Shown: piece by piece, positions 11,367 to 16,311 of the stretch | Layout of the letters: every line of letters starts with the position of its first letter | How positions within the stretch are numbered: the first letter of the stretch is position 1 | Assembly (NCBI RefSeq): GCF_023016525.1 | Contig: NZ_JALKCG010000001.1 | Span: forward strand, 620,001 to 684,000 | Length of the DNA: 64,000 bases | Direction: 5' to 3' | Source of the DNA: Ancylobacter koreensis | GTDB taxonomy: Bacteria; Pseudomonadota; Alphaproteobacteria; Rhizobiales; Xanthobacteraceae | Notes under the pieces: generated by a model | Told to the model about the DNA's origin: nothing | Seen by the model: the letters and a program-made list of their open reading frames with translations, nothing else | Database searches by the model: none | Program-made: the position numbers and the translations under genes

Positions 11367-12173
11367 TCAGTAGAGCGAGCGGGCAAGCCGGCTCGCGGTA
11401 CGGTCGATCTCGCGAGCACTCGCGGCGCCCTGTTCGGCGTCGTTCGGCGCGACGAGCGCGTAGGCGACTTCGCCGACCTGCCAGTAGGCGGCGGTCAGCC
11501 CGTCTTTCGGCACGGTGGTGGCCGGCACGACGTCGAAGGTGCCGGGCCGCACCGCGAAGAGCGAGACGGCACCGTGCTCATGGGTACGCACGGCGAGTTC
11601 GAGGCTCGGCCCGAAAGCGGAGGGGAAGACCTGCACATCCTCCACCTTCCAGTCCTCCGGCAGCGCCGGCAGCACGATGGCGGTGGCGGCGCGGATCTCG
11701 GCGGGGTCGTAGGAGGCGCCCGGCTGCGAGCGCATGCCGGCGCGAAGCTGCGCCGTGCGATGGGCGCGCACCGCGTCCTCGACATAGGCCGGCGGCAGGC
11801 CGGAGGCGACCACGCGGCTGACCCCGAGCGGGCCGAACTGGGCATGGGCGAACCAGCCCGCGCCGATGAGCAGCGCCACCGTGGCGGCGATGCGCATCCG
11901 GCGCAGCCAGCGCTCGCGCGACAGTGCCCCTTCCAGCCGGCGGGCGGCCTCGGCGGTGGCGAGCCGCGCCGTGGCGGCGGAGGCGGCGCGCGGCGTCTCG
12001 GCGAGCGCGAGGCGAAGCTCGTCGCGGGTGCGCAGGTCCGCCATCACCCGCGAAGCGGCGGCGGGGTTGGCGCTCAGATACGCCTCGACGTCGATGCGTC
12101 GGGCGACGTCGAGCTGGTCGTCGACATAGGCCTGCAGGTCGTCGTCGGAGACCGGATCAACGGGACGGGTCAT
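11367..12173 (-). CDS. membrane anti-sigma factor paired with the upstream ECF sigma
   Basis: A 268-residue protein. The N-terminal cytoplasmic part (about residues 1-85; DDDLQAYVDDQLDVARR) has the helical anti-sigma domain look. It is followed by one transmembrane helix (IAATVALLIGAGWFAHAQ) and a periplasmic domain of about 150 residues. No zinc-binding HxxxCxxC motif is seen, so it is not a ZAS-type sensor. Its start overlaps the end of the ECF sigma gene by 17 nt, the usual sigma/anti-sigma coupling. It should hold the sigma factor inactive until an envelope signal arrives; the signal is not evident. Confidence 0.82.
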   Translation of the reverse strand: MTRPVDPVSDDDLQAYVDDQLDVARRIDVEAYLSANPAAASRVMADLRTRDELRLALAETPRAASAATARLATAEAARRLEGALSRERWLRRMRIAATVALLIGAGWFAHAQFGPLGVSRVVASGLPPAYVEDAVRAHRTAQLRAGMRSQPGASYDPAEIRAATAIVLPALPEDWKVEDVQVFPSAFGPSLELAVRTHEHGAVSLFAVRPGTFDVVPATTVPKDGLTAAYWQVGEVAYALVAPNDAEQGAASAREIDRTASRLARSLY

Positions 12174-12726
12174 CCGCACCTCCCACAATGCGCAGACGGC
12201 TGGAACGCCCGGCGCCGGCGCCGTCCTCGACGGCGCGCAGCGCGGCGCGGGCGCGCGACAGGCGCGACATCAGCGTCCCCTGCGGGATGCCGAGTGCGCT
12301 CGCGGCCTCGGCATAGCCAAGGCCCTCGATCGCCACGAGATGCAGCGCCGCGCGCTGCTCCTCGGGAAGCTCCATGAAGGCGTCGCGCACCTGGGCGAGG
12401 CGCAGGCTGTGTTCCTGCGCGGGCGCTGCCACGGTGTCCGCAAGTTCGCCCGCCTGCGCCTCGCGGCGGGTGCGGGCGGCGTTCAGCCTTCGGCGGTCGA
12501 TGAAGACATTGTGCAGCACGGAGAGCAGCCAGCCGCGCAGGCCGCCGGCGGCACCGCCGCGCTCGGCATCGAAGCTGCCGCGCCGCTCATAGGCGCGCAC
12601 CAGCGCGTCGTGCACAAGGTCTTCGGCATCGGTGTCGTCGCGGGTCAGCGAGCGCGCATAGCGGCGCATGACGGGGAGCTGCCCCATCACGTCGAACCTT
12701 ATGCCGCCTGTCTTCTCGCGCCTCAT
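12157..12726 (-). CDS. ECF-type RNA polymerase sigma factor
   Basis: A 189-residue sigma-70 family protein with only regions 2 and 4. Region 2 (about residues 14-85) includes RYARSLTRDDTDAEDLVHDA and GWLLSVLHNVFIDRRR. Region 4 (about 110-170) includes LPEEQRAALHLVAIEGLGYA and SALGIPQGTLMSRLSRARAAL. It is neither EcfG-like nor adjacent to phyR/nepR. The ATG at 12726 fits the alignment best; an internal ATG at 12687 has a weak AAGG site. A GGGAATA-N16-CGTATA element directly upstream may be its own promoter (listed separately). Confidence 0.88.
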   Translation of the reverse strand: MRREKTGGIRFDVMGQLPVMRRYARSLTRDDTDAEDLVHDALVRAYERRGSFDAERGGAAGGLRGWLLSVLHNVFIDRRRLNAARTRREAQAGELADTVAAPAQEHSLRLAQVRDAFMELPEEQRAALHLVAIEGLGYAEAASALGIPQGTLMSRLSRARAALRAVEDGAGAGRSSRLRIVGGADDPSR

Positions 12727-12732
12727 GATCCG

Positions 12733-12761
12733 TATACGGAGCCGCCCGCCCGCCTATTCCC
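12733..12761 (-). promoter_or_regulatory. candidate ECF autoregulatory promoter
   Basis: On the minus strand GGGAATA (12761-12755) and CGTATA (12738-12733) are separated by 16 nt, a typical ECF -35/-10 layout. The -10 lies inside a perfect 12-bp palindrome, TCCGTATACGGA (12729-12740). A start 6-7 nt downstream would fall on the A of the sigma factor ATG, giving a leaderless mRNA. Confidence 0.4.
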
Positions 12762-12796: not shown

Positions 12797-12822
12797 GGAA
12801 CGCGGAGCCGCCCTGGCCCGTT
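12797..12822 (+). promoter_or_regulatory. EcfG-type general stress promoter for the ROK gene
   Basis: GGAAC (12797-12801), 17 nt, CGTT (12819-12822) exactly matches the alphaproteobacterial sigma-EcfG consensus. The expected start is near 12829, giving a leader of about 50 nt before the ATG at 12882. Confidence 0.65.
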
Positions 12823-12881
12823 CTCCTGCGCCGATGCCGATACCGCCGTCGGCCATCGTGAGGGAGGTTTCCGGCTGCGCC

Positions 12882-14198
12882 ATGACAACGAGCGAGAAGA
12901 CGACCAGCGAAAAGAACAAGGGCGCGAAGAAGTCCGAAACGCGGGCGAAGGAGACGCCGCCGGCGCTGGGCGTGCACGGGGCGGCGACGCTCGCCTCCGT
13001 CACCGTCGACGCCTGCAACAGCCAGCTGCGCGAGGAGGACGGATTCCTCGGCGACCGCGCCCGCCGCGCCGCCTTCTTTGAGGGGCTGGAGCGCTGGCGC
13101 GTCCTCGCCGACGGCGAGGGGAAGGGCCGCAAGGACCGCGGCAAGGACGATGACGGCAAGGATGGGGACGGCAAGGATGGGGACGGCAAGGACGACAACG
13201 GCAAGGACGAGGACGTCTCGCCCCGCTTCGGCGACACGCCGACGCCTGAGCTGTCCAAGAGCCTGATCGACGATGTGCTGATCAAGGGCGAGCCGCGCGA
13301 GCAGGCCGTGGTGCATTCCGCCATGGAGGATTACGCGCAGGACCTCGCCGCCGTGCTGCGCCGCCTGCTGCGCACCAAGGACTGGCGCGACACCGAGCGC
13401 GTCGCGGTCGGCGGCGGGCTCACCTCCGGCCGCTTCGCCGCCCTCGCCATCGCCCGTGCGGAGCTGCTGCTGCGCGCCGACGAGGTGAAGGTGGAGCTGC
13501 AGCCGATCCGCAATCATCCCGACGAAGCCGGGCTGATCGGCGCCGCGCATCTGGCGCCGAGCTGGATGTTCGGCAGCTTCGACGACATCCTTGCCGTCGA
13601 CATCGGCGGCACCAATATCCGCGCCGGCATCGTCAAGCTCAATCTCGGCAAGGCGGACGACCTGTCGAAGGCGCGGGTGCGCACGCTGGAGCTGTGGCGC
13701 CACCGTGACGACGAGACCCATCGCGACGACGCGGTGGAGCGCCTCGTCGACATGCTGCGCGGGCTGATCGACAAGGCCGGCAAAGAGGGACTGAAGCTCG
13801 CCCCTTTCATTGGCGTCGCCTGTCCCGGCGCCATCGATGCGGACGGCTCCATCGAGGCCGGCGCGCAGAACCTGCCGGGCAACTGGGAGAGCCAGCGCTT
13901 CAACCTGCCGGCGGCACTGTGGGACGCGATTCCCGAGATCGACGGCCACGAGACGGCGGTGGTGATGCACAACGACGCCGTGGTGCAGGGGCTGAGCGAG
14001 ACGCCCTTCATGCAGGATGTGGAACGCTGGGGCGTGCTGACCATCGGCACCGGGCTGGGCAATGCCCGCTTCACCAACCGCGCGCGCCCGGGCGGCGCCG
14101 GCGAGAAGGACCGCAAGGCGAAGGACGCCAAGGGAGGGGACGCCAAGGGCAAGGGCCGCAAGGACGGAGACAAGAAGGGCGACGGCGGCAAGGGGTGA
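12882..14198 (+). CDS. ROK family protein (sugar kinase-like) with charged repeats
   Basis: A 438-residue protein. A poorly conserved N-terminal region carries a Lys/Asp/Gly repeat tract (about residues 80-112). The ROK/ASKHA core follows, with DIGGTNIRAGIVK (phosphate 1), FIGVACPGAIDADGSI, a catalytic Asp in VVMHNDAVVQG and WGVLTIGTGLGNARF (phosphate 2). The ROK zinc motif (CxCGxxGC) is absent, and the C-terminal 35 residues are a Lys/Gly/Asp tail. It may be a glucokinase-like enzyme or a non-catalytic relative. An EcfG-type promoter stands upstream, so stress induction is inferred. The start is the first ATG; the AGGGAGG site is rather far away (14 nt). Confidence 0.75.
   Translation: MTTSEKTTSEKNKGAKKSETRAKETPPALGVHGAATLASVTVDACNSQLREEDGFLGDRARRAAFFEGLERWRVLADGEGKGRKDRGKDDDGKDGDGKDGDGKDDNGKDEDVSPRFGDTPTPELSKSLIDDVLIKGEPREQAVVHSAMEDYAQDLAAVLRRLLRTKDWRDTERVAVGGGLTSGRFAALAIARAELLLRADEVKVELQPIRNHPDEAGLIGAAHLAPSWMFGSFDDILAVDIGGTNIRAGIVKLNLGKADDLSKARVRTLELWRHRDDETHRDDAVERLVDMLRGLIDKAGKEGLKLAPFIGVACPGAIDADGSIEAGAQNLPGNWESQRFNLPAALWDAIPEIDGHETAVVMHNDAVVQGLSETPFMQDVERWGVLTIGTGLGNARFTNRARPGGAGEKDRKAKDAKGGDAKGKGRKDGDKKGDGGKG
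13152..13211 (+). repeat. 15-bp in-frame tandem repeat in the ROK gene
   Basis: Four 15-bp units of the form GACGGCAAGGATGGG encode DGKDG-like pentapeptides. The first two copies (13152 and 13167) are identical and the next two diverge. A related Lys/Gly/Asp tract recurs at the 3' end of the gene (about 14090-14195). Length variation would keep the reading frame. Confidence 0.8.
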
Positions 14199-14239
14199 CG
14201 CCGCCGTCCCGCAGCCCTGCGACCATCAAGGCGGACCGC

Positions 14240-14779
14240 CTAGGAGGCGGGTTTCCGGGGCGTGGAAGCGCCGGACGCGGTCTTTTCGGAGGCTGTTTTA
14301 CGCGGGGTCGGGCGGCGGGAAGTCTTCGGCGCCGGCTCGCGGGCCGGCCTCGCCTCTCCCCCGCCCTCCTTGCCGCCGCCGTCGCCCTCCCGCTCGCGGC
14401 GGGCAAGCTCCTCATATTCCGCGCGGATCTTCTCCAGCGCGGTATCGTCCAACTCCTCGAGGTCCAGCAGCACACGCCGCGTGCCCTCGGTGCGGGCAAT
14501 CAGTTCGTCCAGCTTGATGTGCAGGGCGGCGGTGTCGCGGTTCTGGCTGTTCTGGATCACGAACACCATCAGGAAGGTGATGATCGTGGTCGAGGTGTTG
14601 ATGATGAGCTGCCAGGTGTCGCCGAAACCGACAAAGGGGCCGCTGAGGCCCCAGAGTACGATCAGCGCCGCCGCACCGACGAAGGTCGCCGGCTTCCCGG
14701 CGGCGGCCGATATTTTCTGGGCGAAACGGGTAAAGAGCGACTGGTTCGGTCTTCCCGTCTGCGTGCTGCCCGGCGCCAT
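14240..14779 (-). CDS. low-affinity iron permease family membrane protein
   Basis: A 179-residue protein of the low-affinity iron permease family. FTRFAQKISAAAGKPATFV precedes two transmembrane helices (about residues 33-55 and 63-85), then the conserved IQNSQNRDTAALHIKLDELI and a C-terminal Lys/Pro/Thr-rich tail of about 50 residues. Bacterial members have no proven iron transport role and often sit with stress genes. ATG at 14779 is chosen because GGGGA lies about 6 nt upstream. An exact EcfG-type promoter stands just ahead, so general-stress control is likely. Confidence 0.82.
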   Translation of the reverse strand: MAPGSTQTGRPNQSLFTRFAQKISAAAGKPATFVGAAALIVLWGLSGPFVGFGDTWQLIINTSTTIITFLMVFVIQNSQNRDTAALHIKLDELIARTEGTRRVLLDLEELDDTALEKIRAEYEELARREREGDGGGKEGGGEARPAREPAPKTSRRPTPRKTASEKTASGASTPRKPAS

Positions 14780-14809
14780 GAACATTCCCCACACTGTTGC
14801 GGGGGCATG

Positions 14810-14835
14810 AACGCGGTGCCGGGCGTCATCGTTCC
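14810..14835 (-). promoter_or_regulatory. EcfG-type promoter for the iron permease family gene
   Basis: Minus strand: GGAAC (14835-14831), 17 nt, CGTT (14813-14810), an exact consensus match. A start near 14803 would give a leader of about 24 nt containing the GGGGA ribosome binding site. Confidence 0.7.
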
Positions 14836-14860
14836 CGCCCGCAGCGCGGACCTGCGCAGA

Positions 14861-15052
14861 TCAGCGGGGGTTCTCGACGTGATCGGGCTTGCCCTTGCGC
14901 GAGGTCGAGGCGAGCTCCTCCAGCTCCTTCTCGGTCATCGAGCCGGCCATTTCTTTCGACGCGCCGCGCAGCGAGCTCTTGCTCGCCTCGCCGCGCTTGG
15001 CGGCGAGCGCCGCGCCGGCCGCCTTCTGCTGTGCCTTGGATTTTGCGGGCAT
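14861..15052 (-). CDS. DUF3008 family small basic protein
   Basis: A 63-residue Lys/Ala-rich protein, MPAKSKAQQKAAGAAL at the start, then SLRGASKEMAGSM and MTEKELEELAST toward the end, matching DUF3008. Function is unknown; the composition resembles small stress-induced or nucleic-acid-associated proteins. A strong GGGAGG site precedes the ATG. It lies 97 nt downstream of the DUF892 gene on the same strand and may share its EcfG-type promoter. Confidence 0.85.
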   Translation of the reverse strand: MPAKSKAQQKAAGAALAAKRGEASKSSLRGASKEMAGSMTEKELEELASTSRKGKPDHVENPR

Positions 15053-15149
15053 GACTGCCTCCCTTGGGGTGAAAAACGACCGGCCACCGGCCCGGACAGG
15101 GGAGGATCCGGGCCGGCGCCGGCATCGCGCGTCGTCTCCGCGCGCCGCC

Positions 15150-15656
15150 TTACTCGGCGGCGTGCAGGTTGACGCGGGATTCCGCGAGCTTGGTCAGCTT
15201 GGTGTCGGCGTTCTTCTCCTCGGCGAGGTTCTTCGTCAGCACGCCGGCGCAGTCGGGCCTGCCGAGCAGCTTGGCCCAGGCGATGAGCGTGCCGTAGCGG
15301 GTCATCTCGTAATGCTCCACCGCCTGCGCGGCAGCGATCAGCGCCGCGTCGAGCACCTGCTTGTCGGCGACATCGCCGGCGATCTCCTCGGCCTCGTCGA
15401 TGATGCCGTCGATCGCCGGGCAGTTGACCGCCTTCGGCTCGATGCCGTGCATGCGGAAGACTTCCTCGACGCGCAGTATGTGGTTCTCGGTCTCGCCGAG
15501 ATGGTTCTGGAAATCCGCCTTCAGCTGCGCATCGCTCGCCTTGTCGATCATGGTCGGCAGCGACTTGGCGATCTTCTTCTCCGCGTAATAGATGTCCTGC
15601 AGCGTGTGCACGAATAGATCGTCCATCGTCTTGATGTCTTTCGAGAACAGACCCAT
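15150..15656 (-). CDS. ferritin-like DUF892 (YciE-type) protein
   Basis: A 168-residue four-helix-bundle protein. TMDDLFVHTLQDIYYAEKKI, the ETENHILRVEEVFRMHG helix and AVEHYEMTRYGTLIAWAK carry the Glu/His ligands of the YciE/DUF892 diiron site. Family members are stress-induced and of unresolved function. A strong AGGAGG site precedes the ATG. An EcfG-like promoter with one mismatch lies about 95 nt upstream. Confidence 0.92.
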   Translation of the reverse strand: MGLFSKDIKTMDDLFVHTLQDIYYAEKKIAKSLPTMIDKASDAQLKADFQNHLGETENHILRVEEVFRMHGIEPKAVNCPAIDGIIDEAEEIAGDVADKQVLDAALIAAAQAVEHYEMTRYGTLIAWAKLLGRPDCAGVLTKNLAEEKNADTKLTKLAESRVNLHAAE

Positions 15657-15749
15657 GGTGAATTCCTCCTGACAGAGCCGGTAATCATTTAGGGTTTTGT
15701 GGTATTCGGCCGCGCGGATACATTTCCGTCCGCAGCCGGATATCGGGAA

Positions 15750-15774
15750 AACAGGTTCGCGGCGGGAACGTTCC
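15750..15774 (-). promoter_or_regulatory. EcfG-like promoter for the DUF892 gene
   Basis: Minus strand: GGAAC (15774-15770), 16 nt, TGTT (15753-15750), one mismatch from GGAAC-N16-CGTT. The -35 element lies within the palindrome GGGAACGTTCCC (15764-15775). Confidence 0.5.
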
Positions 15775-15796
15775 CGGCCGCAGGAGCAAAGACGCC

Positions 15797-16252
15797 TCAG
15801 AGCAGCGTGCCCGGCGCCGGCTGTCCGGGGTCGCGCGGCGGCAGGTCGATGGGCGCCGGACCCGGCTCGTCGCCGGGTTCCTCTACGTCCGGCACGATAT
15901 CCGGGTCGGGGTCGGGCGGCGTCACCGGGTCGTCGATGGCCGGCGGCGGCCGCTCGGACGGCTCGCGAGGGCCGGCCGCCCGCAGCTCCGTGCCGGTGCC
16001 CGGGCGCTGCGGCGGCGGCGCCGGCGGCGGATCGCTGATGATCGGCTCCTCGGGATCGCGCACCGGCGTAATCTCCGGGTCGCGCACCGGCGCCGGACCG
16101 GGAGCGGGACCCGGCGCGGGACCGGGCGTCGGCCGCGGATCGGGGGTCGGCGCAGGCCCCGGCATGGGCGGCACGCCGGGCACCGGCGCATCGGGCTGGC
16201 CGGGCACGGCGGCATATGGCGTCGGCTCAGGGGTTGTCAGCATGGCGTTCAT
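15797..16252 (-). CDS. proline-rich protein of unknown function
   Basis: A 151-residue protein dominated by Pro, Gly, Ala, Asp and Glu, with PGPAPGP repeats (about residues 28-60) and further PDPDPDI-type repeats. There is no signal peptide, membrane segment or recognised domain. Low-complexity GC-rich ORFs can be spurious, but the well-placed GGAGGA before the ATG at 16252 and an exact EcfG-type promoter argue that it is real. The longer upstream frame lacks support. It is divergent from the M20 gene. Confidence 0.6.
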   Translation of the reverse strand: MNAMLTTPEPTPYAAVPGQPDAPVPGVPPMPGPAPTPDPRPTPGPAPGPAPGPAPVRDPEITPVRDPEEPIISDPPPAPPPQRPGTGTELRAAGPREPSERPPPAIDDPVTPPDPDPDIVPDVEEPGDEPGPAPIDLPPRDPGQPAPGTLL

Positions 16253-16286
16253 GGCCGGTTCCTCCGTTTGGACCGTGTCGGGACCA

Positions 16287-16311
16287 ACGTCCCCTCGACC
16301 GGGGGGTTCCT
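16287..16311 (-). promoter_or_regulatory. EcfG-type promoter for the proline-rich gene
   Basis: Minus strand: GGAAC (16311-16307), 16 nt, CGTT (16290-16287), an exact consensus match. A start near 16279 would leave a leader of about 27 nt that includes the GGAGGA site. Confidence 0.65.

Follow-up and report, generated by a model that had tools for sequence, protein, structure and literature searches.

A conserved cluster of EcfG-type promoters and a circularly permuted ROK-type protein in a putative general stress response block of Ancylobacter koreensis

A 64,000-nucleotide stretch of the Ancylobacter koreensis genome (contig NZ_JALKCG010000001.1, positions 620,001 to 684,000; hereafter the window) contains, within 3.5 kb, four EcfG-type promoters ahead of genes for a ROK-type protein, a low-affinity iron permease family protein, a DUF892 ferritin-like protein and a proline-rich protein, with a DUF3008 gene among them. 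The promoter cluster is real and its members are new to the known EcfG regulon. It is lifted above the ordinary by the ROK-type protein, in which the C-terminal half of the fold (residues ~127-227) stands before the N-terminal half (residues ~236-400). The motifs, their conservation, the phyR, nepR and ecfG genes and the permutation were all computed here. Taken as a whole, the locus probably represents an EcfG-driven, permuted sugar kinase within a general stress response (GSR) effector block, a reading in which EcfG dependence, kinase activity, substrate and role are predicted from sequence.

An exact EcfG-type site was defined as GGAAC-N16/17-CGTT, with the reversed pattern as control. The three exact elements and one near match named in the initial annotation are all present, though the third exact site occupies 16286-16310 and not 16311-16287, an error of one base. 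The elements do lie near start codons, while the starts proposed for the ROK gene (12834) and the permease gene (GTG 14794) were replaced by those of the gene caller (ATG 12882 and 14785). With the spacer widened to N15-18, the window holds five matches against 1.24 expected, and none of 100 shuffles reached five.

Conservation was followed in 20 loci that carry the ROK homologue, of which 16 belong to the same genus (Ancylobacter), and the four promoters of the window are kept within the genus while their spacers vary. Of the 16 same-genus loci, 14 have an exact ROK promoter and all 16 have one at up to one mismatch, and the permease promoter is exact in eight of the 12 loci that carry the gene (9/12 at up to one mismatch). 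Among proline-rich orthologues, counted only where matched by tblastn, the site is exact in 6/6. The DUF892 promoter is exact in just one of 11 orthologues and has one mismatch in nine more, giving 10/11; these ten sites all lie at -106 to -116, with CGTT, TGTT or GGTT as the -10 element. Random 250-mers of the same loci, real sites included, gave 81 exact matches in 4,800 and 264 in 4,800 at up to one mismatch. A promoter belonging to DUF3008 itself was considered and ruled out, as none of 11 same-genus orthologues shows a site even at one mismatch; this gene is probably read through from DUF892.

The block also holds together where its surroundings change. The gene for an extracytoplasmic function (ECF) sigma factor that borders it in the window adjoins in five of the 16 same-genus loci (L134, L141, L142, L145 and L146), and in six others (L138, L139, L140, L143, L144 and L147) the five-gene block stands in other surroundings with no ECF match found. 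In all six relocated blocks the sites before ROK and before the proline-rich gene are exact, the DUF892 site is present in 5/6 at up to one mismatch and the permease site in only 3/6. Four loci (L136, L137, L148 and L149) have the ROK gene without the block, and L135 has ROK and permease only. In L134, L142 and L145 an exact motif occurs at approximately the position of the proline-rich promoter, with the gene itself unmatched and, in L142 and L145, with the motif inside a called frame; in L146, where no proline-rich gene was matched, an exact motif precedes DUF892. In L135 the ROK and permease genes lie within a run of six exact EcfG-type sites, their own included, that takes in several further genes (L135:4900-10510).

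Across the genome (4,057,091 bases in 19 contigs, including that of the window) 64 exact sites were found, against 16 for the reversed pattern. Their position was examined in the window and 40 stretches fetched around sites, with genes called by our own small codon-usage caller; this covered 61 of the 64 sites and 762,718 bases, one stretch with masked bases having been left out and two sites unfetched. Although intergenic DNA makes up only 91,443 bases (12%), 55 of the 61 sites fall outside called genes, and for 48 of the 61 a start on the same strand lies within 250 bp as well, whereas the reversed-pattern controls are all inside genes (3/3); as the stretches were picked for holding sites, only the position class is informative in this comparison.

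The genome encodes PhyR, NepR and EcfG, with an exact motif before phyR and before nepR-ecfG. These regulators with the same motif, together with the four genus-conserved promoters, support the interpretation of the locus as part of the GSR that had been offered in the initial annotation. The motif, the regulators in the genome and a conserved position upstream of a start, as expected of EcfG promoters, were all found, apart from three permease orthologues discussed below. Published EcfG motifs agree with that used here: R. etli has GGAAC-N16-CGTT (PMC3892343), M. extorquens GAAC-N16,17-C/GGTT (PMC4814048) and S. melonis GGAAC-N17-20-GTT (PMC6599016), and EcfG is described as 'exclusively present' in Alphaproteobacteria (PMC3892343). 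The locus thus shares -35/-10 motif, spacing and regulators with the EcfG/PhyR/NepR regulons of R. etli (EcfG1), S. meliloti (RpoE2) and M. extorquens (EcfG), but it differs in its predicted targets, which form a block of ROK, iron-permease-family, DUF892/DUF3008 and proline-rich genes. In the papers on EcfG, RpoE2 or stress that were searched, the term 'rok' is absent from the main text, and the S. meliloti homologue may already stand in their supplementary tables as RpoE2-dependent. Likewise, none of the literature searched mentions low-affinity iron permeases together with the GSR. The one paper found on both the ROK family and EcfG places a ROK-family transcription factor, SMa2004, in an S. 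meliloti network (PMC11387232) and apparently does not concern the permuted gene. The region with phyR, nepR and ecfG (C11:970776-984730) contains eight exact sites in 14 kb. Among its motif targets, named by eye, are a peroxiredoxin-like gene, a lipoprotein of glycine-zipper type and small proteins that look secreted, and one of its sites, at 984706, is an inverted repeat behind a gene and may be a terminator.

The permutation of the ROK-type protein rests on profile comparisons, with which structural models agree. Residues are numbered from ATG 12882, and the alignment comprises 41 rows, namely the window protein and those 40 of 86 homologues that are free of inner stops. The window protein scores 36.9 bits against PF00480, above the curated cut-off of 22.9, and all 41 rows match this family at E <=0.01. 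Pfam places model positions 2-143 on residues 237-401, while the end of the family appears earlier in the chain: a trimmed part of the first half (118 aa) matches PF00480 positions 211-292 at E 0.068, and the end of the NCBIfam NanK model (214-286) matches residues 152-225. In an hhalign comparison with six ROK proteins of normal order (NanK, NagK and Mak of E. coli and three from relatives), residues 127-227 align to positions 197-288 (E 5.8e-6) and residues 237-393 to positions 4-134 (E 6.4e-6) without overlap. When the six-sequence profile was duplicated head to tail, a single alignment ran from 197 to 434 across the junction at 291 (E 7e-11), improving to E 1.2e-14 with nine sequences. Against three PPGK-like proteins by themselves only the second half is significant (E 3.7e-9); this normal-order set aligns collinearly to the six (E 1.1e-17). 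The break falls after the phosphate-2 loop (GTGLGNA). The swapped order is common to 41/41 aligned rows, including three Acidovorax/Burkholderiales members, and in view of its departure from the regular N-then-C order the protein is best classed as a permuted, homologous variant of the ROK family and not as a regular member. Of the papers brought up by full-text searches, none has a title or abstract that concerns such a permuted ROK protein, which is no proof of absence in print.

A full-length AlphaFold2 model (predicted local distance difference test score, pLDDT, 82.2; predicted TM score 0.77) has NanK (2yhy) as its top Foldseek match over 157 columns at 2.6 A (E 5.0e-6), an output that does not give the aligned ranges. 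For the first half of a relative (L046) the model reached a pLDDT of 72.2, with ends below 50. Ten of the 11 top Foldseek rows for this half are, judging from titles, ROK kinases or ROK repressors, the other being MurK. Low-complexity repeats rich in Lys, Asp and Gly occur in the window protein as an insert (window positions 13110-13230) and a tail (14090-14195), and the insert is missing in L046, a close relative.

Several motifs are invariant in the 41 rows: D240-I-G-G-x-N245, C314-P-G, Q329-N-L-P-G, H363-N-D365, G389-T-G and G177-G-G. By analogy with ROK kinases, D365 would act as catalytic base, GTG would correspond to the phosphate-2 loop and GGG to the adenosine motif. As the ATP and sugar motifs are invariant, the permuted protein most likely still phosphorylates a hexose, and would do so under stress; the permutation may have changed its substrate or regulation. 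In these phosphate, catalytic and adenosine motifs it resembles the ROK kinases (PF00480: NanK, glucokinase, polyphosphate glucokinase), from which it differs in its permuted order, its extended low-complexity ends and the lack of the zinc motif CxCGxxGCxE, which is present in NanK and NagK of E. coli (CYCGKQGCIE in Mak). This motif was also not seen by eye in normal-order PPGK-like proteins (L181 and L182), so its absence is not decisive. With repressors of the Mlc/NagC type the protein has the ROK domain in common. A role as a DNA-binding repressor of this kind was ruled out, no helix-turn-helix family having been matched.

Homologues extend well beyond the genus. Counting the own genome, 151 of the family's 248 genomes have a match at E <=1e-10, although the matches in G136, G179 and G228 are weak and could be to ROK proteins of normal order; in a class-wide sample the figure is 12 of 289 genomes, again with the own one. 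Among plasmid records 206 of 72,556 match, mostly from Rhizobium (111) and Sinorhizobium (79), and the annotated rows shown are labelled 'ROK family protein', 'glucokinase' or 'hypothetical protein'. The permuted gene is present in R. etli CFN 42 and in S. meliloti 2011, where it lies on pSymB at about 477-478 kb. Of 14 plasmid loci fetched, 12 have an exact motif ahead of the gene. These 12 come from Rhizobium, Sinorhizobium and Phyllobacterium and from a single Bradyrhizobium plasmid, and they include several close relatives and two S. meliloti loci; the misses are Methylobacterium bullatum and Shinella. Relatives are seen in Hyphomicrobiales and some betaproteobacteria. Four copies (L123-L125 and L127) with Acidovorax, Burkholderiales or Gammaproteobacteria titles have 45-47% identity and no exact motif (0/4), and horizontal transfer is possible for them. 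Their lack of the motif agrees with the restriction of EcfG to Alphaproteobacteria.

Several results, for the promoters as for the protein, weigh against this reading and are best judged beside the rival explanations. Clustering as such is a weak argument: enrichment of the 3.5 kb, the check proposed in the initial annotation, was weak, since a triplet within 3,513 bp arose in 8.4% of 20,000 simulations with 64 uniformly placed sites (P = 0.084) and the region around phyR is denser. Such density might be expected if the motifs were chance matches in GC-rich intergenic DNA. That explanation is weakened by the promoter footprints in the genus, where position is conserved with a variable spacer at a low rate of exact matches in random 250-mers, and by the genome-wide excess and intergenic position of the sites, which together make it scarcely credible. 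The promoters are judged real because they are conserved in the genus; density by itself would not suffice. Three of the 12 permease orthologues, all in other surroundings, are without a site even at one mismatch. In a strict test of 87 loci with enough upstream DNA, an exact site was present in only 17 (14 same-genus loci, two duplicates and L115) compared with 21 of 692 other genes, and in none of the chromosomal Bradyrhizobium-titled loci. Bradyrhizobium-type loci mostly have GAAAC or GCAAC at -35, and this G[A/C]AAC form lies at -55 to -65, save in L067, where it is found at -87. The wider form is found in 50 of 63 distinct non-Ancylobacter loci (exact L115 included) against 10 of 560 other genes and 0/63 for the reversed control, supporting evidence at most, as it was picked after viewing those sequences and the species are closely related. 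In other alphaproteobacterial families, with upstream regions anchored by tblastn, exact sites were seen in four of 11 loci, one of them (L200) ~250 bp upstream, and the wider form in five of 11; GGAAC-N16-GGTT was noted by eye in L196 and L201. Finally, other ECF sigma factors may share such promoters, as described for RpoE6 with RpoE2 in S. meliloti (PMC6180224). The ECF sigma/anti-sigma pair next to the block would be the obvious candidate to serve them instead of EcfG, as its sigma gene is divergent from the ROK gene across a gap of 155 bp and GGAAC-type -35 boxes are also used by non-EcfG ECF sigmas such as E. coli RpoE (PMC8103513). This sigma factor is not of the EcfG type, and nepR and ecfG lie elsewhere. 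The conserved element before its own gene ends in CGTATAC and not CGTT, the ROK and proline-rich promoters persist in the six blocks with no ECF match, and the cluster motif also precedes phyR and nepR. The neighbouring ECF was ruled out as reader of the cluster on the differing element and the ECF-less blocks, and service by this pair is considered very unlikely.

For the protein, the whole first part (234 aa) has no Pfam match at E 10, Foldseek of the L046 first-half model gave no match at E 0.001 (best 2.1e-3), phmmer of the first part against PDB sequences returned no ROK protein, and Pfam at E <=0.001 detects, in the window protein, just the N-terminal half of the fold. The last two results would fit an artefact of assembly or gene prediction, or a fusion of two unrelated halves. 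As the same order recurs in every aligned row, across several genera, and both halves map to one family in an alignment continuous over the junction, such an origin is extremely unlikely, and a genuine permutation is preferred. Doubtful, though to be taken more seriously, is the alternative that the protein has lost kinase function and survives as an inactive or regulatory ROK remnant, such as a sugar-binding stress protein. The missing zinc motif (CPG holds the sole cysteine invariant in the 41 rows), the low-complexity charged tail and weak family scores (the best NCBIfam match has 26.9 bits against a cut-off of 250) point in this direction; the invariance of DIGGxN, HND, GTG, GGG and QNLPG would be unusual in a dead enzyme. 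If the permuted protein is a hexose kinase, trehalose metabolism offers one conceivable context. In five fetched plasmid loci, four from Rhizobium and one from Shinella (L155, L163, L164, L166 and L167), the permuted gene stands next to a divergent otsB, trehalose synthesis in B. diazoefficiens is under GSR control (PMC8092242), and otsA/otsB mutants of this organism have stress and symbiotic defects in common with GSR mutants (PMC8092242). A stress-induced kinase that re-phosphorylates trehalose-derived glucose would fit, yet it is a guess, because no EcfG-type site faces otsB in any of the five loci, and the Shinella locus is without any motif.

The features of the block and of the adjoining ECF genes are listed in Table 1. 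An element of the form GGAATA-N17-GTATAC precedes the ECF gene in the window and in 5/5 same-genus loci (four with GGGAATA; TGGAATA in L134) and is a candidate autoregulatory promoter of the PRK12511-type ECF.

Table 1 Features of the promoter block and its neighbourhood (window coordinates).
Feature	Position	Strand	Basis
Putative anti-sigma factor of neighbouring ECF	11367..12173	-	weak match: E 2.7e-5, 24.3 bits vs cut-off 100
ECF sigma factor, PRK12511 equivalog, not EcfG	12157..12726	-	257.5 vs cut-off 185
Promoter-like element before ECF gene, GGGAATA-N17-GTATAC	12732..12761	-	sequence comparison
EcfG-type promoter, permuted ROK gene	12797..12822	+	exact GGAAC-N17-CGTT
Circularly permuted ROK-type protein, 438 aa	12882..14198	+	profiles, models, fold searches
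Low-affinity iron permease family protein (PF04120)	14240..14785	-	family match; start by gene caller
EcfG-type promoter, iron-permease-family gene	14810..14835	-	exact GGAAC-N17-CGTT
DUF3008 protein (PF11450)	14861..15052	-	family match; without own EcfG-type site
DUF892 ferritin-like protein (PF05974)	15150..15656	-	family match
EcfG-type promoter, DUF892 gene	15750..15774	-	near match GGAAC-N16-TGTT
Proline-rich protein	15797..16252	-	no family match
EcfG-type promoter, proline-rich gene	16286..16310	-	exact GGAAC-N16-CGTT

The 3.5-kb region would then be an effector block of the alphaproteobacterial GSR that stays together at different genome positions. PhyR would free EcfG from NepR, and EcfG-RNA polymerase would act at the four promoters of the ROK, iron-permease-family, proline-rich and DUF892 genes, with DUF3008 probably co-transcribed. 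The ROK product, its C-terminal half now before its N-terminal half, would phosphorylate a hexose in stressed cells, with glucose from the turnover of trehalose as a possible substrate. In S. meliloti most RpoE2-dependent genes are described as still lacking a predicted function (PMC6180224). A conserved, catalytically intact-looking ROK relative behind an EcfG-type promoter, found from Ancylobacter to Sinorhizobium, would be a tractable stress gene, and a natural permutation of the ROK fold would provide a clean case for the evolution of two-domain sugar kinases.

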